Shown here piece by piece: positions 2,647 through 46,189 of a DNA stretch of 64,000 nt. The notes under the pieces are model-generated. The model did no database searches. It was not told the origin of the DNA and saw nothing but the letters and a program-made list of their open reading frames with translations. The position numbers and the translations under genes were made by a program. The first letter of the stretch is position 1. Every line of letters starts with the position of its first letter. The DNA lies in the NCBI GenBank assembly GCA_030432235.1, contig JAUIHT010000001.1:868001-932000 (forward strand). The letters run 5' to 3'. The DNA is from Verrucomicrobiia bacterium. GTDB lineage: Bacteria; Verrucomicrobiota; Verrucomicrobiia; Opitutales; Cerasicoccaceae.

Positions 2647-2691
<45 letters not shown>

Positions 2692-4075: not shown

Positions 4076-4098
4076 GGCGGGAGTGGGACTGGATTAAT

Positions 4099-5484: not shown

Positions 5485-5506
5485 TTTTTTGGATGGCTGG
5501 ATTCTA

Positions 5507-6139: not shown

Positions 6140-6259
6140 TTCGTGCGGGGTTAGGTGAGGTTTTCGGATGTGAGCGAAGTATTATCGCTATGATCGGAAG
6201 TTTACCACAGCCCGAGGGCCCCGTCTTGTATCTACGTCTGGAACATTTGTATCCTGGTA

Positions 6260-7399: not shown

Positions 7400-7485
7400 T
7401 CTTGAAAGCGAAATTAGTGGTGAGGTTGCTCAGCTTGTTGCCCGGAAAAAGACGTGGGTAGCTTAAGCTCTCGTTACCATGACGG

Positions 7486-9771: not shown

Positions 9772-9775
9772 GGTC

Positions 9776-26691: not shown

Positions 26692-27525
26692 CTACACGTA
26701 GGCCGAGACCTGGGACTGTGCCTGCGCCGGGGCTTCGTCATTCAGCGCGGATTGAATGTTAGCCATCTTAGAGCGCGCACCTTCCCACATGAGGCAGATG
26801 TCGACCGCAGCCCAGAACAGGCGCATCCCGCGATCCTTCCAGAACCGCAGGCGCGCCGGATCCGCGCAGGCAATGCCGGGTAGAACGCCGTGCCGTTCGC
26901 AGGCCGCGATGACGGACATGACCGCCTCGACGTACTTATCGCTGGTCCACTGACCGGGAATGCCCATGCCGATGGAAAGATCATCATTGCCGACCACGGC
27001 CACATCCAGTCCGGGTACGGACAGAATAGCGTCGAGATTTTCCAGGGCCTCCGCTGTCTCGATTTGGATGCCGACAACGAAGTCGTGGTTAATCGCGTCA
27101 ATCTGATCCGTTACCTTGTCCCAGCCCATGTACTTTCCCGCCGGACAGCAGGAGGCTCCTAAACCACGCTGGCCGAGCGGGGGATATTTGACGGTACGCA
27201 TGATCTGCTCCACTTCTTCGCGAGTGCGGATACGCGGCACATAGATGCCGTCCGGCGCCTGGTCGGCCACGCGGTTGATTTCATGATAACTCGAGTCTGC
27301 GGCCCGCACCATGCAAGGCAGTCCGAGAGCACGGGCCAGGCGGATATGCTCCAGGATGGTCTCGCTGTTGAGCAAGGTATGCTCGCGATCAATCATGAGC
27401 ACGTCGTAGCCGCATTCGTGAAACATTTCCACCGCCGCCCCTGAGCGTGCATCCACGATGCAGCCGGTCAGTAGCATGTCGCGTGCTTCAATGCGTTTTT
27501 TCAGTAGTCCGGTATGACCTTCCAT
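26692..27525 (-). CDS. HpcH/HpaI-family class II aldolase
   Basis: 277 residues. HpaI/citrate-lyase-beta barrel with catalytic Glu/Asp set visible in DVLMIDREHTL (metal-base His), IQIETAEALENLDAIL (metal Glu) and VVGNDDLSIGMGIPGQ (metal Asp). Such enzymes cleave 2-keto-3-deoxy sugar acids (for example 2-keto-3-deoxy-L-rhamnonate) to pyruvate and an aldehyde. The enolase-superfamily dehydratase at 33729 could supply such a keto-deoxy acid. Convergent with the corrinoid operon, 18 bases from the RACo stop. Confidence 0.9.
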   Translation of the reverse strand: MEGHTGLLKKRIEARDMLLTGCIVDARSGAAVEMFHECGYDVLMIDREHTLLNSETILEHIRLARALGLPCMVRAADSSYHEINRVADQAPDGIYVPRIRTREEVEQIMRTVKYPPLGQRGLGASCCPAGKYMGWDKVTDQIDAINHDFVVGIQIETAEALENLDAILSVPGLDVAVVGNDDLSIGMGIPGQWTSDKYVEAVMSVIAACERHGVLPGIACADPARLRFWKDRGMRLFWAAVDICLMWEGARSKMANIQSALNDEAPAQAQSQVSAYV

Positions 27526-27774
27526 AGTCGAATGAGAGGACCTCGCCCTGGGTTGATAAAGTCGTTTGCCGAATTATGGCTTGAAAGGACATATGTATAC
27601 CTATTCACTGTGGCGCGTGCAAGTTTTTATCATCCAAACAGCCCCGACACATGCCGATTTCTGGTGAGGAAGCGGCCATCGTGAATGTGGTATCGGGATA
27701 GGCCGTAAACGGACTGGTAATTTTCCTGAAATTAGCCGAAAGTCGTCAGTTAATCCCAAGTGCGTCACTGCCTC

Positions 27775-28455
27775 ATGACCAAACCGGATAGCACCGTCAG
27801 ATTCAAACTGTCCCGCTGGATATACGGGGGGCTTTTTTGGGGGCTGGTACTTTTTATGGCCTGGTTGTTTATTCCGCGTGCAGTCAACCCACAGGGGTTT
27901 GATCCGGCGGAGATGGCGCGCGTGGAAACACGAATGTGGCGTGCGTACTATGCCAAGGACTACGTCGATCTGACTTTCTCGGTTTGGAGTGTCACGCGTA
28001 GCCAGTTTGGCGGATCGCCTTGGACCGGCCTGCGCATCGCCTACGATGCCGCTCACGCAGCGCGGGTGTTTCAACGCTCCACCAGCCGGGAGGAAGCAGG
28101 CAAAGCGCTTCCTGCTCTGGAAGCCTACTACACCTTGCTGCAAAGCCAGACCGGCATCCCGTTCGACCCCAAAGTGGCGGCGGAACTTGAGTTGGAGTGG
28201 TGGCAGTTGCGCCGGGAGGATGCCACCACCGAGGACATCACGCTCGTGCTGGCGCGGCTCTACGCCATGGTTAATGAGAAGCCGGTGGACGTCATGCTGG
28301 AGCCCGCGCGGTTGCGGGTGGCGGCCATGGAATTTCGTGACAGCCATCGGCACACTGGCATGACGGATGAGGATTGGGCTCAGTTGCAGGACATGCTGCT
28401 CGCCTCCTATCAGAGCCTGAAGAGCGCGATTGAGGCTCGCCCGGTTCGGGCTTAA
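27775..28455 (+). CDS. Hypothetical membrane-anchored protein
   Basis: About 226 residues from ATG at 27775, standing alone between oppositely oriented genes. One N-terminal transmembrane helix (WIYGGLFWGLVLFMAWLFIP, about residues 15-35) is followed by a soluble, mostly alpha-helical domain with conserved-looking aromatic segments (MWRAYYAKDYVDL). The architecture suggests an inner-membrane protein with a periplasmic helical domain. Family not recognised; no function proposed. Confidence 0.75.
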   Translation: MTKPDSTVRFKLSRWIYGGLFWGLVLFMAWLFIPRAVNPQGFDPAEMARVETRMWRAYYAKDYVDLTFSVWSVTRSQFGGSPWTGLRIAYDAAHAARVFQRSTSREEAGKALPALEAYYTLLQSQTGIPFDPKVAAELELEWWQLRREDATTEDITLVLARLYAMVNEKPVDVMLEPARLRVAAMEFRDSHRHTGMTDEDWAQLQDMLLASYQSLKSAIEARPVRA

Positions 28456-28551
28456 TTTTCGCTTCTATTGAAGGTGGCGCACTTAAGCAGCCATTCGCAC
28501 GAAAGAAGCATCCAACGGAGCCTGTCGCGTCGGTACGACTGACGGACGCGT

Positions 28552-30513
28552 TTACTTCCCGTCCGCTTGGGATGGCACGTGCTCGACCTCGTCGCGATTG
28601 TGACCGGCAATCACCATACCGTCGTCGGCGTCGTCGCGCTTGAGGGTTCTCAGGGTGTTGAGCATGTGCTTGAGGTCTTTGAAGCCACCGATGGAAAACC
28701 AGATGGTGATAATCAAGGCCTGCCCAAGACCGATCCAGATGAAGATGCGCCAGAAGGAAAGCCACCAGGCGTCATCCGTTTTCCAGATAAGATGGTAAAC
28801 CAGACCGAAGAGAAAGAGCCCGAAGTACACCAGGATCATGCCGAGTGTTCCGAAGAAGATCAAAGTGTCGCGCATTCCGAACTCGCTGGAGAAACCCAAT
28901 GCGGCGAGACCGCGCTTTGGCTTGGTGGCATCCGTGCTCTTTTCCATGCTGTAGGCGCCTCGATGCAGCATCTCATCCAGGTTGAAGCGTTGCTTCGAGC
29001 ATAGCGATACGATGATGTAGATCAGGCTGGAGCTGACCATGGCGATGAAAAACATCTGCTGGCCGTTAAGGAAGAAATCCGGTTGGACCTGCTTGATAAC
29101 GATGCCGCTGACCGCGAGGACCGAGCCGGTGATCATGGCCGACCAGGCTGCCGGTGTGGTGCCGCGATTCCAGTAGAGCCCGCCGATGATAACCGCTCCG
29201 GCCCCACCCAGGAATATCGCGCCGGTGACGGCGAAGAACAGCAGGATGTATTGGGTTTGGCGAAAGAGCAGGCTGAAGAAGAAAGCGAAGATCGCGACAC
29301 CGAGGATGGAAAAACGCAGCAGGCGCAAATGCTGTTTTGCCGTAAAGGGTTTGCCGCGTATCGGCATGATGACGTCCTGGATGAATATGCTGCCCCAGGA
29401 GTGCAGGTAGGTGTTATCCGTGGACAAGGCAGCCGCGAAGATGATGGTGGCAAACAGCCCCATGAGGCCTACCGGCAGTACGGATTTCAGAAAAAGCGGC
29501 GAAGTCATCTGCTCCTGGATTTGCGGATTCTCAATCGTCGCTATCTGCCCCTGTATGGTCTGTGTGAGATCGCCGAAGGCTCCTGTGTTGAGAACCACGT
29601 AGGCACAGGCGGGGATCAGCATCGGCAGGATGAAGACCAGGGCGGTGCGCCATTGCCCGAGAATTTTTGCCATGCGTGCTTCATGTGGGCTGCGTGCGGA
29701 GGCGTTATAGCCCTGGCTACCTTGCCAGGCCATGGTCGTATAAAACATGCCGAAGGTGGCGATGACGTAAAACCACACGTTGAAATTTTCGACTTTTCCG
29801 GTGTCGAAGGGGTTCAGCCGTGAGGTGCCTTCGCCAACGCTGACACTCAAGCCCGCGGAGATGGCGGACCAATCGAACTTCCACAACAGAAAGAGCAGGA
29901 TGGCGACAAAGCCGACGCTGTAGAGCAGCCCCTGAAAGAAGTCCGTCATGATGATGGCAATCTGCCCGCCGAAGGTCGCGATGAAGACCGCGCTGGACAG
30001 CATGATGAACATGATCAGCGCAAAGACGGACACCTCGAGTCCGAGCAAGCTTACCGTCTCGGGCAGGTCGAAGAAGTAGAGGAAGAAGCGCCCGGTGACG
30101 GCGGGAAAGATACCGTAGTTCACGATACCCGCCAGGAAGCACAGGCTGCCTGCAAAGATGCGAAACCTCCGGCTGTAGCGAACCTCGAGGAATTGCGCGA
30201 GGGTCATGGCGCGGGTTTGCCGGAAGCGGAAGATGACCCAGCCGGTCAGGGAAATGATTAACCCGACGGGCAGTATCATAAGCATCCAGTAGGCCGGGGT
30301 GAAACCGGCGCTGTAGAACTCCTCGAACTTGGCGATGAGTGAAATGGCGCCCAGCCCGGCGGCGCCCTCGGCCATAGTCAGCATGTAGCGGCCCGCGCTC
30401 CGGTTGGCGGCGAGAAAGTCCGCCACGCTTTTGGTCAGGCGCAGGGGGACGAGCACCATCAGGCCTATGAAGATAACAAACCCAATAAAGATGGCCCAGT
30501 CCAGGAATTGCAT
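28552..30513 (-). CDS. Sodium:solute symporter (SSS family)
   Basis: 653 residues with about 14 hydrophobic helices, beginning WAIFIGFVIFIGLMVLVPLR. The SSS core is clear: LAANRSAGRYMLTMAEGAAG, SLTGWVIFRFRQTRAMTLAQ, and the conserved TM region GGQIAIIMTDFFQGLLYSVG. A cytoplasmic C-terminal tail (LKRDDADDGMVIAGHNRDE) is charged. Likely co-transports Na+ with the substrate of the adjacent catabolic genes. It is last in a minus-strand run that starts with the creatininase-family gene. The substrate cannot be read from sequence (sugar, sugar acid, or an amino-acid/betaine type). Confidence 0.93.
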   Translation of the reverse strand: MQFLDWAIFIGFVIFIGLMVLVPLRLTKSVADFLAANRSAGRYMLTMAEGAAGLGAISLIAKFEEFYSAGFTPAYWMLMILPVGLIISLTGWVIFRFRQTRAMTLAQFLEVRYSRRFRIFAGSLCFLAGIVNYGIFPAVTGRFFLYFFDLPETVSLLGLEVSVFALIMFIMLSSAVFIATFGGQIAIIMTDFFQGLLYSVGFVAILLFLLWKFDWSAISAGLSVSVGEGTSRLNPFDTGKVENFNVWFYVIATFGMFYTTMAWQGSQGYNASARSPHEARMAKILGQWRTALVFILPMLIPACAYVVLNTGAFGDLTQTIQGQIATIENPQIQEQMTSPLFLKSVLPVGLMGLFATIIFAAALSTDNTYLHSWGSIFIQDVIMPIRGKPFTAKQHLRLLRFSILGVAIFAFFFSLLFRQTQYILLFFAVTGAIFLGGAGAVIIGGLYWNRGTTPAAWSAMITGSVLAVSGIVIKQVQPDFFLNGQQMFFIAMVSSSLIYIIVSLCSKQRFNLDEMLHRGAYSMEKSTDATKPKRGLAALGFSSEFGMRDTLIFFGTLGMILVYFGLFLFGLVYHLIWKTDDAWWLSFWRIFIWIGLGQALIITIWFSIGGFKDLKHMLNTLRTLKRDDADDGMVIAGHNRDEVEHVPSQADGK

Positions 30514-30530
30514 ACGAGATCCAGAGGGTG

Positions 30531-31307
30531 CTATTGCGTGGCGGAGGCATCCGGGACATTTCCGTCGGGGGAAATCTCAAACGGCAGCCATTCGCTACGC
30601 ACGTGGAAGTTTTGCTCTTTATGATGAGAGGTGGAAGACAGTGAAAAATCACCGGCCTGATCGTAATTGTATCGCGATACGGAAAGGTGGATCTCGCCGC
30701 CTTTTTCCGGACTGATGCCAATCACCGACAGCGGCAAACGGACCAGAAGATGCCACTGGTTGCCTTCCAGCCAGGTGTAGTGATCGAGAAGTTCTTCGTC
30801 CCAGACCAAGCCCTCTTCGAGCTTCAGTTTGCCGTCCTTGCGTTGTTGGAGCAGCGTCTCGCTCCAGTAGAGTTGCATGCGCTGGTTTTGGGGGGAGAAG
30901 TGAAATTCGTAATATTCGTTCGAGTCGTTAATCTCGACAAAGAGCTCCAGGGTATCGCCGTAGCGAAAGATGAAATCGTTAAAGGAGTCTGCCTTGTTAT
31001 GCAGAAAGTGATCGACAGCGACGACGTAGAACCAGAGCGCGCCATCGTACAGGCCCAGCTTCAGTGAGGCCGGCTCGTTGACGGCCTGGTCTGTTTCACC
31101 GGGGAGGCCGATCAAGGGGTACTCTGTGAGTGTGCCGAAGGCGGTCTCGACGGACGCTGGGCTGGCTGGATCAAAGGCTTCCAGCGGGGCTACGGTCTGG
31201 GCGGTTTGAGCAATCATGTCGTTATCGAGTGAGTTGGAACCGCCCGCCATTCCCTGTGCTACGGTTATGAACAGAAAGGAAAGAATGAATGAATATGTTT
31301 TGTGCAT
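30531..31307 (-). CDS. Secreted CBM9-like carbohydrate-binding domain protein
   Basis: 258 residues. N-terminal signal peptide (SFILSFLFITVAQGMAGG) and a domain resembling CBM9/family-9 sugar-binding modules: LGLYDGALWFYVVAVD, then GDTLELFVEINDSNEYYEFHFSP and a strand-rich C-terminal half. Probably periplasmic or surface-bound and binds a glycan or sugar terminus for the symporter encoded 17 bases downstream. Alone without an enzyme domain, so a binding or outer-surface role is inferred. Confidence 0.75.
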   Translation of the reverse strand: MHKTYSFILSFLFITVAQGMAGGSNSLDNDMIAQTAQTVAPLEAFDPASPASVETAFGTLTEYPLIGLPGETDQAVNEPASLKLGLYDGALWFYVVAVDHFLHNKADSFNDFIFRYGDTLELFVEINDSNEYYEFHFSPQNQRMQLYWSETLLQQRKDGKLKLEEGLVWDEELLDHYTWLEGNQWHLLVRLPLSVIGISPEKGGEIHLSVSRYNYDQAGDFSLSSTSHHKEQNFHVRSEWLPFEISPDGNVPDASATQ

Positions 31308-31319
31308 CAGTCATCTCTA

Positions 31320-32174
31320 TCAGTGGCTGCTGGGATTGGTGAAGCAATATTGCATCTGCCCGGGGCGTTTCCAGGTGGTCTTCCACAGGCCGCTTTCGCT
31401 CAGGCCGGTAATGAGCAGGTCGCACGAGTCGGGTCCGTCGAAGTGTACGTTGCTCGGGCGCTTGAAAGGAGTCACGATGCGATCGATGTGTTCGCCAACC
31501 GGGGAAAAGACGTCCACCGCGTAGGCATCGACATAGGCCACGAGCAGGTTGCCCTCGCAGTCGAAGTCCATGCCGTCCGGCCCGAAGCCGGGCTCGGACA
31601 TCTTGGCCCAGATGCGCTTGTTGGTGACGACCCCGGGCTCGATGATATCGTAGGCCCACAACAATTTGGTGAACGTCTCCGCTACGATCAACTGCTTGTC
31701 GTCTGCACTGACCGCCAAGCCGTTGCAGAAGCGATAACCGTCATCGAGGCGGACCACGTTACCGTTGTGGAGACGGCAGAAAAGCTCGCCCACTGGATTA
31801 TCCGCATTGGAGCCTGCCGGGGCGGTAAAGTAGAGGTTTCCCTGGCTGTCGAAGTAGAGGTCGTTACAGCCGCGGATAGGCTTGCCCTCGAACGAGCAAA
31901 CCTCCTCGTGGACACGTTGTGCGGTATCCACTCGCAGGATGCCGCGCCCCATGTCCGCACACCAGAGATTGTTTTCGCGGTCCACCTGAAGGCCCGCCGG
32001 GATGGCTCCGGTATCGGCGTAGACACTCACCTGGCCGGTTTTATGCCAGTGCAGGATATGGTGATCGTTGGAGGCCACCATGAAAGTACGGCCATCGAGA
32101 TCGACCACCGGTCCTTCCGCCGCCGCGATACCTCCGGCGAGCAGTTCAAAGGTGTAGGATTCCGCGGTGCTCAT
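31320..32174 (-). CDS. SMP-30/gluconolactonase-family hydrolase
   Basis: 284 residues, six-bladed beta-propeller. Metal-site residues appear in AAAEGPVVD (Glu), IRGCNDLYFDSQGNLYFT (Asn, Asp), and GPDGMDFDCEGNLLVAY (Asp). It hydrolyses an aldonolactone or similar ester to a sugar acid. With the enolase-superfamily dehydratase, SDR and HpaI aldolase it completes a plausible non-phosphorylated sugar-acid pathway. It is three bases after the RidA gene, so they are one transcript. Confidence 0.9.
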   Translation of the reverse strand: MSTAESYTFELLAGGIAAAEGPVVDLDGRTFMVASNDHHILHWHKTGQVSVYADTGAIPAGLQVDRENNLWCADMGRGILRVDTAQRVHEEVCSFEGKPIRGCNDLYFDSQGNLYFTAPAGSNADNPVGELFCRLHNGNVVRLDDGYRFCNGLAVSADDKQLIVAETFTKLLWAYDIIEPGVVTNKRIWAKMSEPGFGPDGMDFDCEGNLLVAYVDAYAVDVFSPVGEHIDRIVTPFKRPSNVHFDGPDSCDLLITGLSESGLWKTTWKRPGQMQYCFTNPSSH

Positions 32175-32176
32175 GG

Positions 32177-32578
32177 TTACTCGGAGAGCTCGGCGATGGC
32201 TTCAATTTCCACCTTGATGCCCTTGAGAAGTTTGACCCCCACGGTGGAACGCACGGGCTTTACGGGGACATCCTTGAAGTACTCGGCGAAGGTTGCCGTG
32301 AAGGCGGGAAAGTCATCCAGGTCGGCTAGGAAGCAGTTGCACTTGACGATGTCGCTCAAGCTGCCGCCGCCCTGCGTGACGATATCGTTGATGAAGTCGA
32401 GCGTGCGGACGGTTTCCTCCTCAATGGTGCCGTGCAGGATTTTGACTTCCGCGCTTTCCGGATCGAGGGAGCCGTTACCGCAGATGTAGAGGCGGTTGTC
32501 GACACGGACCCCGGGAGAGAAGCCCAGGGGCGTGACATCGAACTTGGCTTTCGAATAGGTGACGAACTCTTTTTTCAT
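32177..32578 (-). CDS. RidA family protein (YjgF/YER057c/UK114)
   Basis: 133 residues. Family motif in the C terminus (VRSTVGVKLLKGIKVEIEAIAELS) and the central CNCFLADLDDF segment are present; the Arg that marks imine deaminases is seen in KPVRSTVGV. RidA-type enzymes destroy enamine/imine intermediates or act as ring-opening or ammonia-releasing steps in catabolism. It sits between the SMP-30 gene and the creatininase-family gene. Confidence 0.9.
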   Translation of the reverse strand: MKKEFVTYSKAKFDVTPLGFSPGVRVDNRLYICGNGSLDPESAEVKILHGTIEEETVRTLDFINDIVTQGGGSLSDIVKCNCFLADLDDFPAFTATFAEYFKDVPVKPVRSTVGVKLLKGIKVEIEAIAELSE

Positions 32579-32621
32579 AGCGTATGATCAGGTATGGATG
32601 GTGATGTAATTCTGCTTCGGT

Positions 32622-33404
32622 TTATTTAAGAGGTTCCATGGGTTTCCAGCGGGAGAAGTCCTGCAGGAAATCGGAAATTTCGTTCGCCACTGCTTCAAGT
32701 AACGAGTGGCCCTTTTCGGCGGTGGCATGCTGGGGCTGCCCCATGTGCCCGGAAGAGGTCCAGCGATGAAAGCGGTGGAAGCCTTCGAGTTTGTTTGCCC
32801 ATTTGCCCGATGCCCAGGGGCGCTCGACCTCGACGTGCTCCGAAGTAATACGCGAGAGGTCGACCAGGTCTTCCCGGATGGCGAGCATGAGCGAGGTTTC
32901 GTACTCGCAGGCGTGCAGGAGAGTCGGCGTCTGCATGCCGTGGCGTTCCGGCTTCATGGCGTCACTGGCGGTTTGCCACCAGCAGCCGAGCGTGATAGTA
33001 GCTGCGTCGAAACGGTCGTCGGTAACCACCATATCCGTAATGGCCTGAGACACGGGCACGAGATTGCCGCCGTGTCCGTTGAGGAAGTGAATGCGGTTGA
33101 ACCCCGCCTCCAGCACGCAGGTGGCCAGCGATTGAATGATCTGGGCATAAAGAGTAGGGCGCAGGCTCAAGCGACCAGGGAAGTCACGGTGATGGTCCGA
33201 AGCGCCCAGCCAGAGCGTAGGCAGCAAGACGACTTTATCCTGGAGTCGCTCTTCCAGCTTATCGGCGAGGGCTGCGACCTGAAGGGTATCGACGAACAGT
33301 GGCAGATGTTTGCCGTGTTGCTCGCACGAGCCCAAGGGAATGACCACTGGCAGGCTTTTATCCAGCCTGTCGATTTCATCCCAGCTTAGTTCTGCCCATA
33401 ACAT
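32622..33404 (-). CDS. Creatininase-family amidohydrolase
   Basis: 260 residues. Metal ligands typical of the family: Glu and His in GSCEQHGKHLPLFVDT, with Asp at the end, HGGN in FLNGHGGNLVP, and Glu in ACEYETSLM. Members open creatinine or other small cyclic amides; in this phylum paralogs are common in catabolic clusters and the substrate is mostly unknown. It is the first gene of the minus-strand run leading to RidA, SMP-30, CBM9 and the symporter, and is divergent from the enolase-superfamily gene across a 325-base regulatory gap. Confidence 0.88.
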   Translation of the reverse strand: MLWAELSWDEIDRLDKSLPVVIPLGSCEQHGKHLPLFVDTLQVAALADKLEERLQDKVVLLPTLWLGASDHHRDFPGRLSLRPTLYAQIIQSLATCVLEAGFNRIHFLNGHGGNLVPVSQAITDMVVTDDRFDAATITLGCWWQTASDAMKPERHGMQTPTLLHACEYETSLMLAIREDLVDLSRITSEHVEVERPWASGKWANKLEGFHRFHRWTSSGHMGQPQHATAEKGHSLLEAVANEISDFLQDFSRWKPMEPLK

Positions 33405-33728
33405 ATGCGATTCCGGTTGAAGAGGGATACCATTCTCAGCTAGTGGAATAGGCTCGGTGTGAATTAGTATTCATATGAGACAAAATGTACAAACCTAAAA
33501 ATTGGGTCAAGATCATCTTATATCGCCTTTAAATTTCCCTGGAGAGGCTATTTGAGGTGTGGCTTGACTTACTTATTGAATAAGTATACATAAGTCGCCC
33601 ATATTGAATTCGACAAGCATAAATTCCAGAATTTTAAAAGCCTTCAGGGCGGATTAAGATGCGTAAGGCGTTTTTTTTGACGACATATACGCCCGCTTGA
33701 GTGGGATTCCTGTACAATTTAATATCCT
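33405..33728. promoter_or_regulatory. Divergent intergenic region with perfect palindrome and hairpin/T-run
   Basis: 324 AT-rich bases between the creatininase gene (minus) and the enolase-superfamily gene (plus). ACTTATT-G-AATAAGT at 33571-33585 is a perfect 7+7 palindrome nested in a wider one (GACTTA at 33566, TAAGTC at 33591), a likely operator. At 33640-33678 GCCTT and AAGGC arms about 20 bases apart are followed by eight T, a possible terminator or leader hairpin on the plus strand. No small ORF was found. Confidence 0.5.
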
Positions 33729-34901
33729 ATGGCCTTGAATCTAGAATCAGTTGAAAGCTGGGTGGTGAAGGTGCCGCTGCTGGCGGAATGGGCTTCCAGC
33801 CCCGACTTTGGCGAGCATGGGCACGGCGATAGTACCTCGCACCGGCTGATTGTTCGCGTTCGGGATCGGGACGGCTTCGAGGGTTGGGGTGAAAACTCTG
33901 TCGTGCAAAGTCCGGAGGAGCGCGCCCGGGCCTTCTCCCGTTTGTTGCACAGGGACGACGCCGGGTTGCGTCTTGATATGCTTCCTCTGTGGGAGCCGGG
34001 CGGCAGTTACTGGCTTCAGCCCGTGCCGCCTTCACCGTATACACCGCCGCTGCACAATCTGCAACATCGGCTCCGCCAGCCGTTGCGGCCTATTTTGGAA
34101 GCAGCCCTGAGCGATTTGATTGCCCGTCGCGCCGGGGTGCGCCTTTGTGAGTTGTGGGGCGGGCCCTGGCGTGATTCCGTGTCCGTCGACTACTGGATGG
34201 GGCGTGTTACGCCGGAGGATGCGGCGCGTTGCGTCCAGCGTGCGATAGCACTCGGATTTCGCGGAGTGAAGCTGAAGACGACTTTGGAGGACCCCAATGT
34301 CGCGCGCTTGGAGGCGATACAGTCCGCGGGTGGAAAGGACTTCCATGTGACGGTCGATCCCAACGGTCGCTTCTATCGGCTGGAGGATGCCCTGCCGCAA
34401 CTGCGGGCCATGGATGCCGTGGGCAACATGGCTATCCTGGAAGACCCATTTCCGCGTTTTCATCTGGAGGATTTCGTGGCGCTGCGTAGTCGAATCATGG
34501 CCCGCGTGGCCGTACATATCGATCCGCCGGAGAGCTTGTGGAACGTGGTGACTTCGGGTGCCGCCGGGGCACTCAACATCAGCCATGCTCCGCAGGGCCC
34601 GGGCGAGTGGCGCCGGGACGCAGCCGTCGCCCAACGGGCGAACTTGGCCATCTGGCACGGCAGCAATCTGGATCTCGGCATCGGCACAGCGTTGCAACTC
34701 CACTTGGCTGCCAGTGCGCCCAACTGTACCTTGCCGGGTGACCAGGCGGGTCCCTGGCTACGGGAAAAAACACTTATCAAGCAATCGTTTCAAGTCACGG
34801 AGGGCCGGGTGAAAGTTCCGGAAGGGCCGGGGCTGGGCGTGGATGTCGATCTCGATTCACTCGAGGATTCCTGCGTGGGGCACTGGGAAATAAAGAGTTA
34901 G
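33729..34901 (+). CDS. Enolase-superfamily (mandelate racemase/muconate lactonizing type) enzyme
   Basis: 390 residues. N-terminal capping domain (VPLLAEWASSPDFG) and barrel with KxK in GFRGVKLKTT (about 183-185), metal ligands Asp in VTVDPNGRF and Glu in AILEDPF, then the third ligand region AVHIDPPES, and His in NLAIWHGSNLDLGIG. Most likely a sugar-acid dehydratase giving a 2-keto-3-deoxy acid. Substrate specificity cannot be called. Followed 75 bases later by an SDR gene. Confidence 0.85.
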   Translation: MALNLESVESWVVKVPLLAEWASSPDFGEHGHGDSTSHRLIVRVRDRDGFEGWGENSVVQSPEERARAFSRLLHRDDAGLRLDMLPLWEPGGSYWLQPVPPSPYTPPLHNLQHRLRQPLRPILEAALSDLIARRAGVRLCELWGGPWRDSVSVDYWMGRVTPEDAARCVQRAIALGFRGVKLKTTLEDPNVARLEAIQSAGGKDFHVTVDPNGRFYRLEDALPQLRAMDAVGNMAILEDPFPRFHLEDFVALRSRIMARVAVHIDPPESLWNVVTSGAAGALNISHAPQGPGEWRRDAAVAQRANLAIWHGSNLDLGIGTALQLHLAASAPNCTLPGDQAGPWLREKTLIKQSFQVTEGRVKVPEGPGLGVDVDLDSLEDSCVGHWEIKS

Positions 34902-34976
34902 GATTTAGGCCAAAGATGCGGATGAGCTTCAGAAGACTTACGACCTGTTGAACAAAAGAAATGAGGAAAATTTACC

Positions 34977-35888
34977 ATGAGTGCGGATAAAAGAAACGAA
35001 CGATGCGGCGTCGCCCTGGTTACCGGAGCAGCCGGTATCATTGGCCCCGGCATTTGTGCTACCTTGCGTGCCGATGGTTGGACCGTGGCCGCGGCAGATA
35101 TATCGGAAGAGGAGTTCGAGGTCACCGCGCGCTATCAAGACGCGGTTCAGTCCGATGGGCAGTTTTATGCGGATTTGTCAAAAGGACAGGACTGCGAGCG
35201 TCTGATCGCTGAAGTGGAAGAGCGCCTGGGGCCAATCGGATTGCTGGTCAACAACGCGGCGATGCCACAGGCCAAAGGCGAGTTCGGGGAGGTTCGTCGC
35301 GCCGACTATGAGCGGCTCGTTAACATCAACCTGCTGGCGCCATTCTTCCTGACTCAATCCGCGTTCGAGTCGTTGAAGCAGACTGGGGGAGCGGTTATCA
35401 TGATTTCGTCGGTCCTGTCCCGCCTGCCTCGCCCGGGAGCGACGCTTTATGGTGTGACCAAGGCCGCTCTGGAAAAGCAGACCGAGTACCTGGCGTTCGA
35501 GTTGTCGCGCTTCGGCATTCGCGTCAATGCCATCCGCGTGGGAGGGATACCCGGCGCTCATTTCATGCGTGAAACGTTGCGCGAACTACCCGAAGAGCAG
35601 GCGCGCGAGCTTTGCGAAGAAGTCATGAAGGTGCATCAGGCCGATGTGGTGGATGAGGGCGAGCTGCCCCTGCTGGGCACGCCCAATGATATCGCCCAGG
35701 CGATTCGTTATCTGGCGTCCGACGATGCGCGTATGGTCAACGGCACCACGCTGGCGGTGGACGGTGGTCTTTACTTTCGTGACAGCACCATGGAGCGCGT
35801 CGGCGCGAAGAGTGCACGGGCGCGCGCAACCCTGAAAGCGGCTTTGGAACGACTGCGGAATCAGGCTCCCAGTGAGGCGGCGAAATAA
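34977..35888 (+). CDS. Short-chain dehydrogenase/reductase
   Basis: 303 residues. NAD-binding GAAGIIGPGICATL at the N terminus (a Gly-variant of GxxxGxG), NNAAMPQAK, Ser in MISSVLSR, and YxxxK in LYGVTKAALEKQ. A GAGG-type ribosome binding site precedes the ATG. The C-terminal extension after the GLYFRDSTM block is longer than usual. Probably oxidises a sugar or sugar-acid intermediate of the same pathway as the enolase-superfamily gene in front of it. Confidence 0.92.
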   Translation: MSADKRNERCGVALVTGAAGIIGPGICATLRADGWTVAAADISEEEFEVTARYQDAVQSDGQFYADLSKGQDCERLIAEVEERLGPIGLLVNNAAMPQAKGEFGEVRRADYERLVNINLLAPFFLTQSAFESLKQTGGAVIMISSVLSRLPRPGATLYGVTKAALEKQTEYLAFELSRFGIRVNAIRVGGIPGAHFMRETLRELPEEQARELCEEVMKVHQADVVDEGELPLLGTPNDIAQAIRYLASDDARMVNGTTLAVDGGLYFRDSTMERVGAKSARARATLKAALERLRNQAPSEAAK

Positions 35889-38908: not shown

Positions 38909-39778
38909 TCAGCCGTCGCGATCCTCCACGGGGGTACGGCCATGGAAGTTTTTGTAGGCGCGGCTGAAGTCGTTGAAATAACGATAGCCCAACTCATGGG
39001 CAACTTCCTTGACCGTGCGCCCTCCCGCACGCAGGAGCCGCCGGGCGTGTTCCATCTTGAGCTGGTTGAAGTAGGTCAGGGGGCTTACACCGTGCTCGTC
39101 GCGAAAGAGCCGGTAGAGCGTGGACTGGGAAAGGTTCAGGTAGTCGCACAGGCGCGCCACAGGCTCGCTGCTATCCAGGTGTTGCTCCATCCAGGTGACT
39201 ACCTGCTTGAGCAGATGTGTGGAATCTTTGTCTGGCTCCGCGGTAAGCGTGCGTTGCAACGTGGCCAGGAATTGCAGGTAGCAGCCCTCCAGAAAGGCGT
39301 CGCTCAAATCATCCAGGCGCAGGACCTCGTCGCGGCAGGCTTCGTGGAGGCGAAAAAGAGGCTCCTGCATTTTTCGACTTAGGATACGAATGATGTGAGA
39401 AGCGGCGCCGCGCTCGCGGGGGAGACCATCCAGGTCGCGCCACATCCACACGATGAATTTGCACTGGTCGTTACCGGGCGCTTCCCAGCCAAAGGGGCAG
39501 TCCGGCCCAAGGATGGCCAGCGTGCCCGCAGTGACGCGTGAGGTCTTACCGTCGATGGTCAGGGTGGGGACGCCTTCCTCCACCAGCAGGCAGGTCCAGC
39601 CCTCGTGCAGGCTGGAGGGGATGGGCTCTTTTTTAAAATCGCGGTGCCCCCAGGCCAAGTACTGCAGGGGGAGCTCGCGACCCTCCGGGCACTTCCAGAA
39701 GGAACGGTCACGCGCCGGCAGGTAGAGCTTTTTAGGGGTGGCCGGGCTCATAGCATTATCATTCAAACAATTTTTCAA
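38909..39778 (-). CDS. AraC-family transcriptional regulator
   Basis: 289 residues with an N-terminal cupin-like sensor (LAWGHRDFKKEPIPSSLH; VTAGTLAILGPDCPFGW) and C-terminal HTH pair (VARLCDYLNLSQSTLYRLF and VKEVAHELGYRYFNDFSRAY). It is divergent from the bicupin-activase-GRE-fused oxygenase operon across a 72-base gap and is its probable regulator. Confidence 0.92.
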   Translation of the reverse strand: MKNCLNDNAMSPATPKKLYLPARDRSFWKCPEGRELPLQYLAWGHRDFKKEPIPSSLHEGWTCLLVEEGVPTLTIDGKTSRVTAGTLAILGPDCPFGWEAPGNDQCKFIVWMWRDLDGLPRERGAASHIIRILSRKMQEPLFRLHEACRDEVLRLDDLSDAFLEGCYLQFLATLQRTLTAEPDKDSTHLLKQVVTWMEQHLDSSEPVARLCDYLNLSQSTLYRLFRDEHGVSPLTYFNQLKMEHARRLLRAGGRTVKEVAHELGYRYFNDFSRAYKNFHGRTPVEDRDG

Positions 39779-39850: not shown

Positions 39851-40606
39851 ATGAATAACACAGTAGAACCTCCCGCTCAGGAAATTTTTGATCTATCAGC
39901 CGTCAAAGCTGATTGTAATCGCAAGCAGTTGCTTCCGAATGAAATCGAGGGAGTGGACACGTTTGTCATCACGATGGGCCTTGGTCGCTCGGTTGAATTT
40001 GCTGCGGACGCTCTCCGCCAGACTGTTGTCTTCGTCGTAGCAGGACAAGGCACGGCGAGTGTTGATGGGACGGAGTACCGTCTGGATGCGCTCTCGCTCT
40101 TTGTGCCCCGTCCCGGTACGGCTTCCCGCTACGAAGCCAGCGAGAGCAGCACCTTGCTGGTCATCGAAATGGCGCTGCGCCAGGAGGAGGCTGGAGGTCA
40201 GGCCGATACCGCCTATCCGCTCTACCTGCGCTACGAAGATTGCGAAAAATATCGTGACTACTTCAAGAGTGAGAAGACGGTCAGCCGTACGTTGGTGCAT
40301 CCGTACACCTTGCCGCGTTTTTGCATGGGCTCGGTGCAGACTACCGGCCCCGACCGCATCGACCCGCACGCGCACCCGATGCTGGACCAGCTCTTCTTCA
40401 GCTTTTCCGAAAACAAATGCACGTTGCTCATCGACGGGGCGGAGTTTTCCTTCGGCGGCGATTGCCTGCTTCACATTCCTCTCGGTTCCGACCACGGTGT
40501 CGATGCCGTCGAGGGCGACGTCGTGCACTACCTGTGGATGGATTTCTTCCCCAGCTCCAAGGAAATGGAGTACATCGTCGAATGCCACAAACCGGTGGAG
40601 GCCTAA
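39851..40606 (+). CDS. Bicupin protein heading the glycyl-radical operon
   Basis: 251 residues forming two cupin barrels. The first contains VFVVAGQGTASVDGTEY and the second has the metal motif DPHAHPMLDQLFFSF with a later His in PLGSDHGVDAVEG. No HTH is present, so it is not a regulator. Bicupins can be isomerases, dioxygenases or lyases of sugar acids. First gene of the GRE operon, three bases before the activase start. Function not assigned; an isomerase or an ancillary enzyme of the GRE substrate is plausible. Confidence 0.8.
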   Translation: MNNTVEPPAQEIFDLSAVKADCNRKQLLPNEIEGVDTFVITMGLGRSVEFAADALRQTVVFVVAGQGTASVDGTEYRLDALSLFVPRPGTASRYEASESSTLLVIEMALRQEEAGGQADTAYPLYLRYEDCEKYRDYFKSEKTVSRTLVHPYTLPRFCMGSVQTTGPDRIDPHAHPMLDQLFFSFSENKCTLLIDGAEFSFGGDCLLHIPLGSDHGVDAVEGDVVHYLWMDFFPSSKEMEYIVECHKPVEA

Positions 40607-40609
40607 ACC

Positions 40610-41497
40610 ATGAACGGGCTCGTCACAGACATCCAACGCTTCTCCCTGCACGACGGACCGGGCATCCGCACGACCGTCTTCTGCAAGGGCTGCAACATGC
40701 GTTGTGCCTGGTGCCACAACCCGGAAACGATCAATCGTCGGCCGCAGTTGCAGTTCTTCGAGAGCCGTTGCATCCAATGCGGCAACTGCAAGGAGGATTG
40801 TGACACGGCCTCGGCTTCGGCAGAGGATGTCTTTACGGACAGCACGGGCAAGCGTCGGCACTATCGTGGCAATTGCCAGGCGCGCGCCCTGGTGAAAGTC
40901 GGCCGTCGACTGAGTGCCGAGGATGTGCTGCGGGAAGCTGAGCAGGATCGCGCCTTCTACGATCGCTCCGGTGGCGGTGTCACCTTGTCCGGTGGGGAGG
41001 CGAGTTTGCAGCATGGCTTTGTGCGCGAGACGCTGACACTGCTTCGTGAGCGTGGCATCCATACCGCCATTGAAACGAACCTGACGGCGCCACGCGATCA
41101 ACTGAAGTATCTGCTGCCCGAGCTAGATCTGGTGATCTTCGATATCAAGTGCATCGATGCAGCGCTTCATCGTGAGTGGACAGGTGTCGGCAACGAACGC
41201 ATCCTCGACAATGCCCACTGGCTGGCAGGGCAGGGCAAGCCCTTCATCGTCCGTACGCCGATCATTCCCGGCTTCAACGACGACGAGGCCTCAATCGGCG
41301 CGGTGGCGGATTTTATCAAGGATTTCGCCAATCTCTCTTACTACGAGCTGTTGGCGTTCAACCCTCTTGGAGCAGACAAGTACCGCTGCCTCGGCATGAA
41401 CTATCGTCTGAAGGACGCCCCGCTGATCTCCCGTGAAAAACTCCAGTGTCTGGCGGATGTGGCCGGGCAGCGGGGTATCGAAGTACGCACCGCCTAA
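40610..41497 (+). CDS. Glycyl radical enzyme activase (radical SAM)
   Basis: 295 residues. The radical SAM cluster motif CNMRCAWC (CX3CX2C) begins near residue 27, with GGE (LSGGEASL) for SAM binding. An inserted ferredoxin region (CIQCGNCKEDC plus GNCQAR) holds at least one auxiliary [4Fe-4S] cluster, fewer cysteines than typical two-cluster activases. It installs the glycyl radical in the enzyme encoded next, 26 bases downstream. Strong family call. Confidence 0.95.
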   Translation: MNGLVTDIQRFSLHDGPGIRTTVFCKGCNMRCAWCHNPETINRRPQLQFFESRCIQCGNCKEDCDTASASAEDVFTDSTGKRRHYRGNCQARALVKVGRRLSAEDVLREAEQDRAFYDRSGGGVTLSGGEASLQHGFVRETLTLLRERGIHTAIETNLTAPRDQLKYLLPELDLVIFDIKCIDAALHREWTGVGNERILDNAHWLAGQGKPFIVRTPIIPGFNDDEASIGAVADFIKDFANLSYYELLAFNPLGADKYRCLGMNYRLKDAPLISREKLQCLADVAGQRGIEVRTA

Positions 41498-41523
41498 TCT
41501 TTAATTCTAAACGAAGCTCTGTT

Positions 41524-43770
41524 ATGCAAAGTCAAAACAGCACCGAAGCGTCCGCCTTCACCTACAGGTTCCGCATGCGCAAGCTGATGGAAAAGAAGAT
41601 GGCCGTCACACAGGAGAAAATCGATCGCGAGGGCGGCATGGACGAAGGCGACTACGGGCGCCATGTGGCGCCGGAGGGTTTCCGCTGGGACTTCATTCCC
41701 AATCACGCCGATGGCTCCTTTTATGGCTACATGGGCTGGGCGGTGAACTTCGAGAGCCTGCTTGCCAGCCAGCCTGTCTATGTGAACCCCTACGATGCTT
41801 TGGCGGGGCAGACTTTCTTCTACTTGTCCAAGATGAAGTCGCCGCAGTTGACCGAGGAGGATATCCGTGCGCGGCGGACTCCCGGTGTGGTCGGTCACAT
41901 CTGGAATCCGGACTTCGACTATTCACACCTGAAGCCCTTTCACCGGAAGTACCACATCGTGCACGGCATCGGTAACGACGCCCACTATGCCAGCGACCTA
42001 CAGATGGGGCTGGAGTTGGGGTGGGGCGGTATCCTCGACAAGCTGCACCGTTTTCAAAAGCAGCATGGCCGCGACAAGGCGCTCTTCTACGAGTGTGAAA
42101 TCCGCACCGTGCATGCCATTCAGCATTGGATTCGCCGAACCATCGATGAAATTGATCGGCGACTTGAAGCTGAGGCCGATCCTGATCTTCGTGCCAACCT
42201 GGAAGCGATGCGGGAGGTCAATGCCTGGATCGTCGAGCAGCCGCCGCGCACCTTGCGTGAGGCCTGCCAGTGGCTTGCCTGGTTTGTCCTGGCCAAGCGT
42301 ACTTACAATCGTTGTGGAGCCGGTGGCCAGCTGGATGAGCTGCTGCGGCCCTATTATGAGCGCGACTTGAAAGAGGGGCGTATCGATGATGACGAGGCTG
42401 TCTTCACCATCGCCTGCCTGCTGCTCATCGATGCGCAGTACTACCAACTGGCCGGGCCGGGGTCCGACGGGCAGGACATGACCAGCCGGATTTCCCACCT
42501 CATACTGGACGCGGCCGAGCTCATGGACGGGCCGTGCAACCTCACCATCCGCGTGCATGACGGCCTCGACCAGGCACTGTTCCGGCGCGGCGTGGAGTTG
42601 CTCTTCAAGTACCGTAAGGGCTGGCCGCGATTCAGTGGGGACCAGGCGCTGGTCGACGGCTTTATGCGTTGCGGTTACTCGAAGGAGCTGGCGCGCAAGC
42701 GCATCGCCGTCGGCTGCAACTGGATGTCCCTGCCCGGTCTTGAGTACACCTTGAACGACGTGGTGAAGATCAATCTCGCCAAGGTCTTTGAAGTGGCGTT
42801 GGACGATCTGTATCAGTCAGGTGATACACATTCCATCGATTCGCTGTGGGCGCACTTTATCGAGCATTTGCAGATCGCGGCGGAAAAAACCGCTGACGGC
42901 AACGACTTCCATCTGCGCCACCAGGCGCACAACGAGCCCGAGTTGGTGACCAACCTTCTCTGCCACGGTCCGGTCGAAAAGGGTCTCGATATGACTGCCG
43001 GCGGGGCGCAGTACTACAACCTTGCCATAGACGGTGCGGGCATCGCGGTCGTGGCAGACTCCTTCGCGGCCATCCAGCAACGTGTGGTCGAGCAGGGCGC
43101 CCTGACTTGGAAGGACCTGCGCTGGTATCTGGAGAACGACTTTCCCGGGTCCGAGGGCGAGCAGGTGCGTTTGCTTCTGCACAACAGCGAGCGCTACGGG
43201 CAGGACAGTGGTAACCGCGCCGAGCAATGGGCGGTGAAAGTCTCACGCGCCTTTAGCAAGGCCGTCCGCGATCAGAATCAGCGTTATCCGGACTACAACT
43301 TCATCCCGGGGCTGTTCTCCTGGGCCAACACCCTCGAGTTCGGCGACGCGGTCGGCGCTACGCCCAACGGCCGCCGTGCCCATGAGCCGGTCAACCACGG
43401 GGCTAACCCGCTGCCCGGCTTCCGTGACGACGGCGCTGTCACGGCCATGGTCAACGCCATCGCGGCGGTCCAGCCCGGCTACGGCAACACCGCGCCGGTC
43501 CAGTTGGAGCTCGACCCAAACATCGCGGACAGCCCCGAGGCGGTCGCGAAAATCCAGGCACTGATCCAAACGATGTTCGACCTGGGTTGCACGCTTCTGA
43601 ACATCAACCTCATCGATGAAGAGCGTATCTTGGAGGCGCACAAGGACCCGTCGAAGTTTCCCGACCTGGTGGTGCGCGTGACGGGGTTCACCTCCTACTT
43701 CTCCATGCTGTCGCCGCGGTTCCGCCAGTTGATCGTGGACCGTATTTTGTCCCGACGCGGCACGCTATAG
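41524..43770 (+). CDS. Glycyl radical enzyme with atypical active-site motif
   Basis: 748 residues from the ATG at 41524; upstream in-frame codons belong to the activase overlap. The glycyl-radical loop RVTGFTSYF puts Gly at 721, and the thiyl Cys is Cys398 in AVGCNWMSLPG. Diol dehydratases, choline TMA-lyase, isethionate lyase and arylacetate decarboxylases usually have Glu two residues after this Cys (GCVE); here it is Trp (GCNW), so the catalytic chemistry should differ. Overall length matches PFL-family enzymes. Operon partners are the activase, a bicupin and a fused oxygenase. Substrate unknown. Confidence 0.9.
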   Translation: MQSQNSTEASAFTYRFRMRKLMEKKMAVTQEKIDREGGMDEGDYGRHVAPEGFRWDFIPNHADGSFYGYMGWAVNFESLLASQPVYVNPYDALAGQTFFYLSKMKSPQLTEEDIRARRTPGVVGHIWNPDFDYSHLKPFHRKYHIVHGIGNDAHYASDLQMGLELGWGGILDKLHRFQKQHGRDKALFYECEIRTVHAIQHWIRRTIDEIDRRLEAEADPDLRANLEAMREVNAWIVEQPPRTLREACQWLAWFVLAKRTYNRCGAGGQLDELLRPYYERDLKEGRIDDDEAVFTIACLLLIDAQYYQLAGPGSDGQDMTSRISHLILDAAELMDGPCNLTIRVHDGLDQALFRRGVELLFKYRKGWPRFSGDQALVDGFMRCGYSKELARKRIAVGCNWMSLPGLEYTLNDVVKINLAKVFEVALDDLYQSGDTHSIDSLWAHFIEHLQIAAEKTADGNDFHLRHQAHNEPELVTNLLCHGPVEKGLDMTAGGAQYYNLAIDGAGIAVVADSFAAIQQRVVEQGALTWKDLRWYLENDFPGSEGEQVRLLLHNSERYGQDSGNRAEQWAVKVSRAFSKAVRDQNQRYPDYNFIPGLFSWANTLEFGDAVGATPNGRRAHEPVNHGANPLPGFRDDGAVTAMVNAIAAVQPGYGNTAPVQLELDPNIADSPEAVAKIQALIQTMFDLGCTLLNINLIDEERILEAHKDPSKFPDLVVRVTGFTSYFSMLSPRFRQLIVDRILSRRGTL

Positions 43771-43882: not shown

Positions 43883-46189
43883 ATGAGCCAAGCAACCATG
43901 TCCCCGCCTCCCGATGAAGCGGACAAAGTAAGTCTGCAGGATTACAGCCTGGTGGGTAAGAATTCCCAACAGGCTATCGAGAAAGGCCTGGCCGAGGCCG
44001 ACTGGTACACCTCACCCGTGCCCAAAGACAAGATGCGCAAGCTGCTTGAGCGCAAGGATGGCCCGGCGTTACGCGACTGCGCGATCTACTTTGGCCTTAT
44101 TTTTCTGTTCGGTTACCTGACTTATGTGCTGTGGGGTACCTGGTGGGCGCTCATCCCGATGATGTGTTACGGCATCTTGTATGCCTCCGCTTCGGACTCG
44201 CGTTGGCATGAGTCCAGTCACGGCACCGCCTTCAAGACCGACTGGCTCAACAACACCCTCTACGAGGTGGCTTCGTTCATGGTTTTGCGCGAGTCTATCC
44301 CGTGGCGCTGGAGCCATACCCGTCACCACAGCGATACCATTATTGTGGGTCGCGATCCGGAGATCGCGGTGCCGCGTCCGCCCGATCTGAAGTCGATGCC
44401 CCTGAAGTGTGTCAACTTCCAGGCCTTTCGCCGCTATGTGAAAAATATCGCGCTGCACTGCGCGGGGCGGGTCAATCCGGAAGAGGCAACTTACATCCCC
44501 AAGTCGGAATACCCGAAGGTCTTCCTGCGCGCGCGCGTCTACGCGGTGATTTACCTGATGCTCTTCGGGCTGTGCCTTTACTACCGGACGTTGCTGCCCT
44601 TCGTCTTTGTTATCGGGCCCAACCTTTACGGCGCCTGGCTGATGCCCATCTACGGTTGGACCCAGCATGCGGGTCTGGCGGAAAACGTCCTCGATCACCG
44701 ACTCAATTGCCGGACGATCGAGATGAATTTCGTGCACCGCTTCCTCTATTGGAACATGAACTTTCACCTGGAGCATCACATGTTCCCGTTGGTGCCCTAC
44801 CATCAGCTCCCCGAGTTGCACCGGCTGGTCAAGGACGACTGCCCGGAGCCGTACCCGAGCCTGACCGCCGTCTACCGTGAAATCATTCCGGCGGTGTTGC
44901 GGCAGATCCAGGATCCCGGTTATTACGTCAAACGCAAGCTGCCCCCGACGGCGCGCCCAGTCGGCTCCAAGCCGGTCACGCCCGCCATCACAGCGGAGGG
45001 GCGCGAGGCCGTCGACGGCTGGATCGAGGTGTGTGACCGCGATGTGCTGGAACTCGGTGACGTCGTGCGCTTCGACCACGGCACGCGCACTTATGCCGTT
45101 TACCGTACCGAGGATGACACCTTCCACGCCACCGACGGCATCTGCACTCACGGCAACACCCACCTGGCCGATGGGCTGGTCAAGGGCAAGTTGATCGAGT
45201 GTCCCAAGCACAACGGTCGCTTCAACCTGACCGATGGCTCTCCGGCCCGCCAGCCCGTGTGCGTGGCTCTGCGCAGCTATCCGGCCAAGGTGGAGCAGGG
45301 CAAAATCTTCATGAATCTCACGCCGACAGGCGGAAAAGCCGAAGCGCAGAAGACGTATCGCTTCGAAGTCGTCAGCAACGAAAACGTGGCTACTTTCATT
45401 AAGGAACTCGTACTAGAACCAGTCGAGGGACAGGCGATGCCCGACTACCGGCCCGGCCAGTACATGCAGTTGGATATTCCCGCCTACGACGAAATTCGTT
45501 TCGCCGACTTCCAGGTGGCGGAGCCCTTTGCCTCCTCCTGGCGTGCGCACCATGTTTTCGACTACAAAGCGGGCAATGCTACCGAAGCGCGCCGCAATTA
45601 CTCCCTCGCGACCAATCCGGCGAGCGGGGCAGGGGAGCTGCGCTTTAACGTCCGCATCGCCACCCCGCCTCGCGGACAGGACTGCGACGCGGGCATCGGC
45701 TCCTCCTATGTCTTCAGCCTCAAGCCCGGTGATATGGTTACGGCTATCGGTCCCTTCGGAGACTTTCTTATCAAGGAGACACAGCGTGAGATGGTCTACC
45801 TGGGTGGCGGTGCAGGTATGGCGCCCCTGCGTTCGCAATTGTCACACCTGCTGGAGACCATGCAGACCGAGCGGCAGATTACCTTCTGGTATGGTGCGCG
45901 TTCACGGCAGGAAATCTTTTACGAAGACGATTTCCGTGGGCTGGAGAAGCGTTTCCCGAACTTCCGCTTCCACATCGCGCTCTCCGAGCCGCTACCGGAG
46001 GATAACTGGACCGGTCATACGGGCTTCATCCACGAAGTGCTCAAGCGCGAACATCTCGATGGGCACACCAATCCCAAAGCCATTGAGTACTATCTGTGCG
46101 GACCACCCATGATGATTCAGGCTGCGCAAGACATGCTCCTTAACGACTTCGCGGTCGACCAGCAGGACATTGCCTTCGACGAGTTTTGA
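43883..46189 (+). CDS. Second fused di-iron desaturase/hydroxylase, Rieske and NqrF-like reductase
   Basis: 768 residues, same three-domain layout as the gene at 13460 and close to it in sequence (for example box region HESSH, HTRHHSDTIIVGRDPE and the HLEHH third box). Rieske motif CTHGNTH and CPKHNGRF; FAD motif RRNYSLATN; NAD motif GGGAGMAPLR; C-terminal FDEF identical to the first copy. It follows the glycyl radical enzyme by 112 bases on the same strand, probably in the same operon or with its own promoter. Function as self-sufficient oxygenase is inference; the substrate may be the GRE product, or the enzyme may serve under oxic conditions. Confidence 0.87.
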   Translation: MSQATMSPPPDEADKVSLQDYSLVGKNSQQAIEKGLAEADWYTSPVPKDKMRKLLERKDGPALRDCAIYFGLIFLFGYLTYVLWGTWWALIPMMCYGILYASASDSRWHESSHGTAFKTDWLNNTLYEVASFMVLRESIPWRWSHTRHHSDTIIVGRDPEIAVPRPPDLKSMPLKCVNFQAFRRYVKNIALHCAGRVNPEEATYIPKSEYPKVFLRARVYAVIYLMLFGLCLYYRTLLPFVFVIGPNLYGAWLMPIYGWTQHAGLAENVLDHRLNCRTIEMNFVHRFLYWNMNFHLEHHMFPLVPYHQLPELHRLVKDDCPEPYPSLTAVYREIIPAVLRQIQDPGYYVKRKLPPTARPVGSKPVTPAITAEGREAVDGWIEVCDRDVLELGDVVRFDHGTRTYAVYRTEDDTFHATDGICTHGNTHLADGLVKGKLIECPKHNGRFNLTDGSPARQPVCVALRSYPAKVEQGKIFMNLTPTGGKAEAQKTYRFEVVSNENVATFIKELVLEPVEGQAMPDYRPGQYMQLDIPAYDEIRFADFQVAEPFASSWRAHHVFDYKAGNATEARRNYSLATNPASGAGELRFNVRIATPPRGQDCDAGIGSSYVFSLKPGDMVTAIGPFGDFLIKETQREMVYLGGGAGMAPLRSQLSHLLETMQTERQITFWYGARSRQEIFYEDDFRGLEKRFPNFRFHIALSEPLPEDNWTGHTGFIHEVLKREHLDGHTNPKAIEYYLCGPPMMIQAAQDMLLNDFAVDQQDIAFDEF

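Follow-up and report, generated by a model that had tools for sequence, protein, structure and literature searches.

The window (the whole 64,000-nucleotide stretch of DNA analysed here) encodes a glycyl radical enzyme (GRE) with tryptophan in place of the usual glutamate two residues after the active-site cysteine, and it almost certainly represents a real and widespread GRE subfamily, as yet unnamed, whose Cys loop is altered; we call it CxW to set it apart from the CxE motif of other GREs. Our preferred reading, to which we assign a probability of roughly 40 %, is that the enzyme is a radical lyase or dehydratase for a sugar or cyclic polyol that uses acid-base residues other than the CxE glutamate. 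Tryptophan occupies the CxE site in all members seen, which range from Bacillota and Bacteroidota to Planctomycetota, Chloroflexota and Bathyarchaeota, and such a family offers a natural test of which residues elimination by a thiyl radical needs.

The Cys loop of the CxW enzymes

The GRE reading frame is open throughout, from an ATG at 41524 to a stop codon at 43768-43770, and its product exceeds the cut-offs of the Pfam PFL-like (303 bits) and Gly_radical (44.6 bits, cut-off 22.2) domains; it is the sole PF02901 match in the 5.7 Mb source genome. As the original prediction had it, the GCNW motif carries no glutamate at Cys+2, Cys398 (TGC, 42715-42717) being followed by Asn399 (42718-42720) and Trp400 (TGG, 42721-42723), with Glu407 (GAG, 42742-42744) and Asp412 (GAC, 42757-42759) farther along the same loop. 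The glycyl loop, which had also been proposed to be intact, is indeed present (RVT-Gly721-F, with Gly721 encoded by GGG at 43684-43686), and with both its Cys and Gly loops in place the enzyme looks intact as judged from its sequence. Pyruvate formate-lyase (PFL) belongs to the same superfamily and likewise lacks CxE, but it has a Cys-Cys pair where the window GRE has Gly397-Cys398, and it is a weaker fold match (2pfl, Z 30.8). Aminoacyl radical enzymes are likewise non-canonical GRE relatives, in which, according to PMC11528403, the radical glycine is changed to alanine, serine or threonine; the window GRE differs from these in keeping Gly721 and in having an altered Cys loop.

Table 1. Positions in the window of the GRE, its two loops and the adjacent genes
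Feature	Position	Strand	Basis or remark
GRE, 748 aa, CxW subfamily	41524..43770	+	Domains, family alignment, AlphaFold model, family counts
Cys loop, V396-G397-C398-N399-W400 ... G405-x-E407-Y408 ... D412	42709..42759	+	
Glycyl radical loop, VVRVTG(721)FTSYF	43669..43701	+	Thr720 and Gly721 common to 73/74 members; the 74th (L089) is cut by a contig end
GRE activase (radical SAM)	40610..41497	+	TIGR02494, 318 bits (cut-off 174)
Bicupin, first gene of apparent operon	39851..40606	+	
AraC-type regulator, divergent	38909..39778	-	N-terminal sequence resembles the AraC protein beside the GRE of Geminisphaera colitermitum TAV2

Together with a glutamate at Cys+9, the tryptophan at Cys+2 is present in all 74 non-redundant relatives scoring above 600 bits (the equivalent of Cys398 is also kept in 74/74), in 110/110 frames scoring above 600 bits against the profile of alignment A2 and in 80/80 named loci (the best 80 of 204), and it is retained at identities as low as 24 %. 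Retention on this scale argues against chance or decay, and a sequencing error is ruled out by the same conservation. At this position the 89 non-redundant other GREs, which come mostly from the window's phylum and E. coli and are thus no survey of all GREs, have Glu (83), Arg (3), Gly (2) or Leu (1) but never Trp. The contrast with other GREs drawn in the original prediction therefore stands, and E. coli PflB has ACCVSP.

The non-redundant set comprises 164 of 221 frames, after removal of those with fewer than 430 matched columns or more than 80 % identity; E. coli PflB was misaligned in it and is left out of the counts. C398, W400, G405, E407 and D412 are invariant in the 62 members of alignment A2 as well, partly by choice, because these rows were drawn mainly from frames matching a regular expression that contains W and E. 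Cys+1 is Asn in 29, His in 28 and Gln in 5 of these members, which gives the motif C-[N/H/Q]-W. Less circular are the counts over all frames above 600 bits against the A2 profile, where the lowest non-redundant member scores 755 and the highest other GRE 364 bits. Two of the 96 cluster members lack the regular expression and are other, CxE-type GREs from the same loci. We note that six other GREs are also without Glu at Cys+2 (L030, L154, L015, L180, L184 and L197, with loops such as GCLLCVLPGRE, SCMGLVMPGAE, ACVGSYIPYET and TACNRVNLPGR); each may have a chemistry of its own, and those included in the 39-row IQ-TREE analysis (all except L180) fall outside the CxW branch. One CxW gene (L125, G410:C18) contains an in-frame TGA, reflecting a reading error, a pseudogene or recoding.

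None of the NCBIfam GRE equivalogs (CutC, HypD, HpsG, HPAD, IAD and PFL) is matched at its cut-off, the best score being 200 bits against a required 1109, and the subfamily model TIGR01774 gives 239 bits, below its cut-off of 678. Searched by sequence, the PDB gives CutC, PflD and glycerol dehydratase as top matches, each of them distant, and among solved chains PflD scores highest by profile (359 bits). Among these models and structures no cluster of known substrate sharing the GCNW motif was encountered, and the distinct subclass originally proposed is supported; nor is a CxW family described among the literature matches listed, which represent a part of the open PMC papers.

Distribution and phylogeny

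A class-wide search of 286 genomes gave three relatives above 230 bits, one with GCNW (L003) and two with GCQW (L004 and L005). Their alignment with the window protein served for a scan of 84,980 species genomes, with scan patterns placed outside the Cys loop, and 204 stretches were found to encode a relative, of which the best 80 were retained as named loci. With phyla taken as named in the records, mostly metagenome bins, these 80 loci span 13 phyla, one of them archaeal: Bacillota (24), Bacteroidota (14), Chloroflexota (13), Planctomycetota (8), Verrucomicrobiota (5), Lentisphaerota (4), Kiritimatiellota (2), Bathyarchaeota (2) and five further phyla (1 each), with three loci unplaced. With no more than two candidates scored in each genome, 23 of 387 genomes of the window's phylum, the source genome included, had a hit above 690 bits. 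Several genomes of this phylum (G481, G424, G437 and others) hold 25-26 first-look GRE candidates in one genome, of which again at most two were scored, hinting at a large GRE expansion.

The CxW subfamily is apparently of single origin, as judged from sequence trees. In an IQ-TREE analysis of 39 chosen rows a branch with support of 98/91, its bootstrap not fully settled, sets all 15 CxW rows apart from the rest, and a quick tree from a MAFFT alignment of these 39 rows keeps the CxW branch when the Cys loop is masked (SH-aLRT 97). FastTree with 163 rows splits off 71 CxW rows on a long stem with support of 1.0, leaving outside them the divergent GCQW members L005, L130 and L134 (24-26 % identical), which both 39-row trees do group with the other CxW enzymes.

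Within its own GTDB family the CxW gene is found in only one of ten genomes searched, the source genome itself, which suggests gene transfer. The same sparse occurrence would suit a decayed or misassembled gene whose active site has drifted, but the frame is open, the subfamily's invariant residues are present, the gene lies in an operon with an activase gene, and its nearest copies, from Geminisphaera colitermitum TAV2 and a second Opitutaceae genome, are 74-76 % identical; we give decay practically no weight.

Predicted active site and candidate reaction

An AlphaFold model derived from 62 family members (pLDDT 92.4, pTM 0.93) has the GRE fold. Its nearest folds are PflD with 1,5-anhydromannitol-6-phosphate and glycerol dehydratase, each at Z 36.4, followed by propanediol dehydratases, hydroxyproline-type enzymes, CutC and others; matches within 1 Z are treated as tied. 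The residues of B12-independent glycerol dehydratase (1r8w) aligned here, His164 and Asp447 among them, are of functional importance in that enzyme. By profile alignment these two correspond to His154 and Asp412 of the window GRE, both invariant in the 62 aligned members, whereas Glu435 is represented by Trp400 and His281 by Arg263 (Arg in 44/62), and the 271-311 stretch is shorter; 1,2-propanediol dehydratase (5i2a, 9rco) also has a similar fold (Z about 36). An ordinary glycerol or 1,2-propanediol dehydratase, or a PFL, with a harmless substitution would account for the two Pfam domains and for the rank of glycerol dehydratase among the folds, but not for scores far under the equivalog cut-offs, the lack of CxE, the arginine in place of His281 or the separate, supported branch, and we consider this very improbable.

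The 1,5-anhydrohexitol-6-phosphate lyases PflD and YbiW (8id0, 8yjo, 8id7) are alike in fold (for 8id0, Z 36.4 and rmsd 2.9 over 696 aligned residues) and share the Cys and Gly loops, and PflD has equivalents of His154 and Asp412; they are, however, only 21-22 % identical to the window GRE and have CxE rather than CxW. Residues 271 and 311 are 40-41 positions apart in 74/74 CxW members, compared with 41-62 (median 48) in the 89 other GREs, 59 in PflD and 61 in YbiW of E. coli, so that part of the PflD/YbiW pocket wall should be missing. The CxW enzymes also depart from most other GREs at Asn693 (mostly Gln/His elsewhere), Gln660 (Asn/Asp), Asn628 (Ser/Gly/Ala), Thr720 (Ala/Gly/Ser/Cys) and His625.

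In PMC7077986 and PMC8473560 the CxE glutamate is regarded as a mark of GRE eliminases; in HypD and IslA it forms a hydrogen bond with a hydroxyl of the substrate, and its replacement by Gln abolishes activity. Since it is essential in those enzymes, its loss could equally mean another chemistry, and a chemistry different from that of other GREs is plausible. One such course would be a thiyl-radical reaction other than elimination (C-C cleavage, decarboxylation or rearrangement) on a carbohydrate-derived substrate, with no need of a carboxylate at Cys+2. PFL, which cleaves a C-C bond, manages without CxE, and the constancy of tryptophan in 74/74 members, together with the differences at Asn693, Gln660, Asn628 and Thr720, would fit such a reaction; against it, eliminases head both the fold and the profile comparisons, glycerol dehydratase residues have retained counterparts in His154 and Asp412, and with gaps of 3 and 26 bases the operon has no space between its genes where an accessory small subunit could be encoded. 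We therefore view a non-eliminating enzyme as rather unlikely. The fold and the retained equivalents of His164 and Asp447 make dehydratase-like elimination with another base a likely enough course, and an eliminase with a substitute base stands, in our estimate, somewhat short of an even chance.

In the preferred lyase or dehydratase reaction, the activase would place a radical on Gly721, from which it would be transferred to Cys398; the resulting thiyl radical would abstract the hydrogen atom of a carbinol carbon, either in a sugar or cyclic polyol or in the keto form produced by a Gfo/Idh enzyme, and the adjacent C-O bond would then be eliminated, as in glycerol dehydratase and PflD. With tryptophan in place of the Cys+2 glutamate, other invariant residues would have to handle proton transfer, the candidates being His154 and Asp412, and/or Glu407; Trp400 may pack on the substrate ring, and the shorter 271-311 stretch should alter the pocket wall. 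The partner genes of the enzyme in the window encode the bicupin and the activase. A role for Glu407 as a simple stand-in for the missing glutamate is weakened by the presence of Glu at Cys+9 in 21/89 other GREs, mostly with Glu at +2 kept as well, and it is thus not clearly a replacement base.

Operon, gene neighbourhoods and substrate

The bicupin, activase and GRE genes (39851-43770), separated by the short gaps given above, form an apparent operon. The claim that the activase is intact holds for the radical-SAM motif CX3CX2C but not for the second auxiliary cluster motif CxxCxxC, which has been lost. This second motif is also missing in the activases of the two nearest relatives (L092 and L032), and the activase of L003 has both. 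An activase-like gene is clustered with the GRE in 69/104 CxW loci, many of the remaining loci having short flanks. The bicupin is homologous (E 1e-53 to 1e-17) to a bicupin directly adjoining the GRE in 13 other loci from Bacillota and PVC-group genomes, two of which (L047 and L124) apparently lie on the same contig, and its profile finds no match near 60 control GREs. Its invariant H173, H175, Q180 and H215 look like a metal site (H-x-H...Q...H), and searching solved structures by sequence gave no clear relative (best E 0.056).

Genes for Gfo/Idh/MocA oxidoreductases (Gfo/Idh for short) are statistically associated with CxW enzymes. In the window's phylum they lie within 4.5 kb of the GRE in 13/23 CxW loci compared with 5/60 loci of other GREs (Fisher p 9e-6), and in 10/18 when CxW loci are reduced to one per genus and set against all 60 control loci (p 6e-5); the figure for the named loci, the best 80 of 204, is 24/80. 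No such gene is within this distance in 10/23 same-phylum and 56/80 named loci, many of which have short flanks. The Gfo/Idh profile was seeded from CxW neighbours, and gene calls came from a purpose-made script rather than annotation, but tallies by Pfam are independent of the seeding: taking up to two genes per side, Gfo/Idh accounts for 18/68 CxW neighbours against at most 1/104 control neighbours (p 2e-7), the upper limit reflecting its place outside the 25 control families listed, the last of which have one member. The neighbours scanned were 68 of 71 in the same-phylum loci (three fragments left out) and 104 of 165 in the controls, which are other GREs of the window's phylum (40 of 60 loci). 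Among neighbours of the named loci 23/189 are Gfo/Idh by Pfam, 189 of 210 having been scanned (activase fragments and short pieces left out). Eight loci (L205, L206, L208, L209, L211, L215, L223 and L226) have two to four consecutive Gfo/Idh genes, and no Gfo/Idh gene is present among the window proteins scanned around the GRE.

This statistical link points to sugars or polyols, and the CxW enzyme probably acts on a sugar or cyclic polyol. Less common neighbours in keeping with this are GH92, RhaT, DHDPS-type aldolases, xylose-isomerase-like barrels and sugar transporters, all of which, like FAD oxidoreductases, were seen more than once. Near the TAV2 GRE lie, among others, genes for a GH106 rhamnosidase and a sugar transporter. 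Control GREs, too, have xylose-isomerase-like barrels and sugar kinases beside them. The sugars so indicated are mixed and no single substrate follows from them: sialic acid, rhamnose, mannose and inositol, suggested by GH92, GH38, GH106, RhaT, NANM, DHDPS and IolG neighbours, were each dropped as the one substrate because each is seen in few loci. None of the neighbours examined points to the methylated compounds named originally. Of ten Gfo/Idh neighbours compared with curated models, nine fall below the cut-offs and one is inositol 2-dehydrogenase (L044). At this last locus, from Puteibacter, the CxW GRE adjoins genes (852-10000) resembling those of myo-inositol catabolism by their first residues, with the inositol 2-dehydrogenase confirmed by NCBIfam.

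The 1,5-anhydrofructose reductase of soil bacteria belongs to the Gfo/Idh group. A non-phosphorylating 1,5-anhydrohexitol lyase, opening the ring as PflD and YbiW do to give 1-deoxyfructose, but from a cyclic polyol that carries no phosphate and comes from a Gfo/Idh-type reductase, would agree with the place of PflD as top profile match and joint top fold. It would also agree with the cleavage of 1,5-AG6P and 1,5-AM6P by YbiW and PflD and the reduction of 1,5-anhydrofructose to 1,5-anhydromannitol in soil bacteria, both described in a review (PMC12441222). PflD and YbiW, however, have CxE and the longer 271-311 spacing, glycerol and propanediol dehydratases lie within 1 Z, and the curated models recognize only an inositol 2-dehydrogenase among the ten neighbours; we consider such a lyase improbable. 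Returning to the sugar or polyol lyase or dehydratase preferred here, CxW loci point to an unassigned anaerobic sugar or polyol pathway with the signature of GRE, activase and Gfo/Idh or bicupin. We propose more tentatively, and at clearly less than even odds, that the CxW enzymes are a phylum-spanning class that exchanged its CxE carboxylate for tryptophan on a single occasion, coupled in many genomes to Gfo/Idh or a metal bicupin and catalysing a novel radical reaction on keto-sugars or cyclitols, in which case anaerobes would gain a second, non-hydrolytic route into carbohydrates.

The source genome has an NrdD match and three COX1 matches, and the host thus looks facultatively anaerobic. 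Elsewhere in the window, 26692-35888 encodes an HpcH/HpaI aldolase, an SSF transporter, an SMP-30 lactonase, a creatininase-type protein, an enolase-superfamily dehydratase and an SDR. Next come genes for an M81 protein, an RraA-like protein and IclR; this cluster looks like the make-up of an oxidative sugar-acid route and possibly has no link to the GRE. Directly downstream of the oxygen-sensitive GRE, 43883-46189 (+ strand) encodes a 768-residue protein in which a fatty-acid-desaturase-like membrane domain is fused to a Rieske ferredoxin and an NqrF-like reductase.
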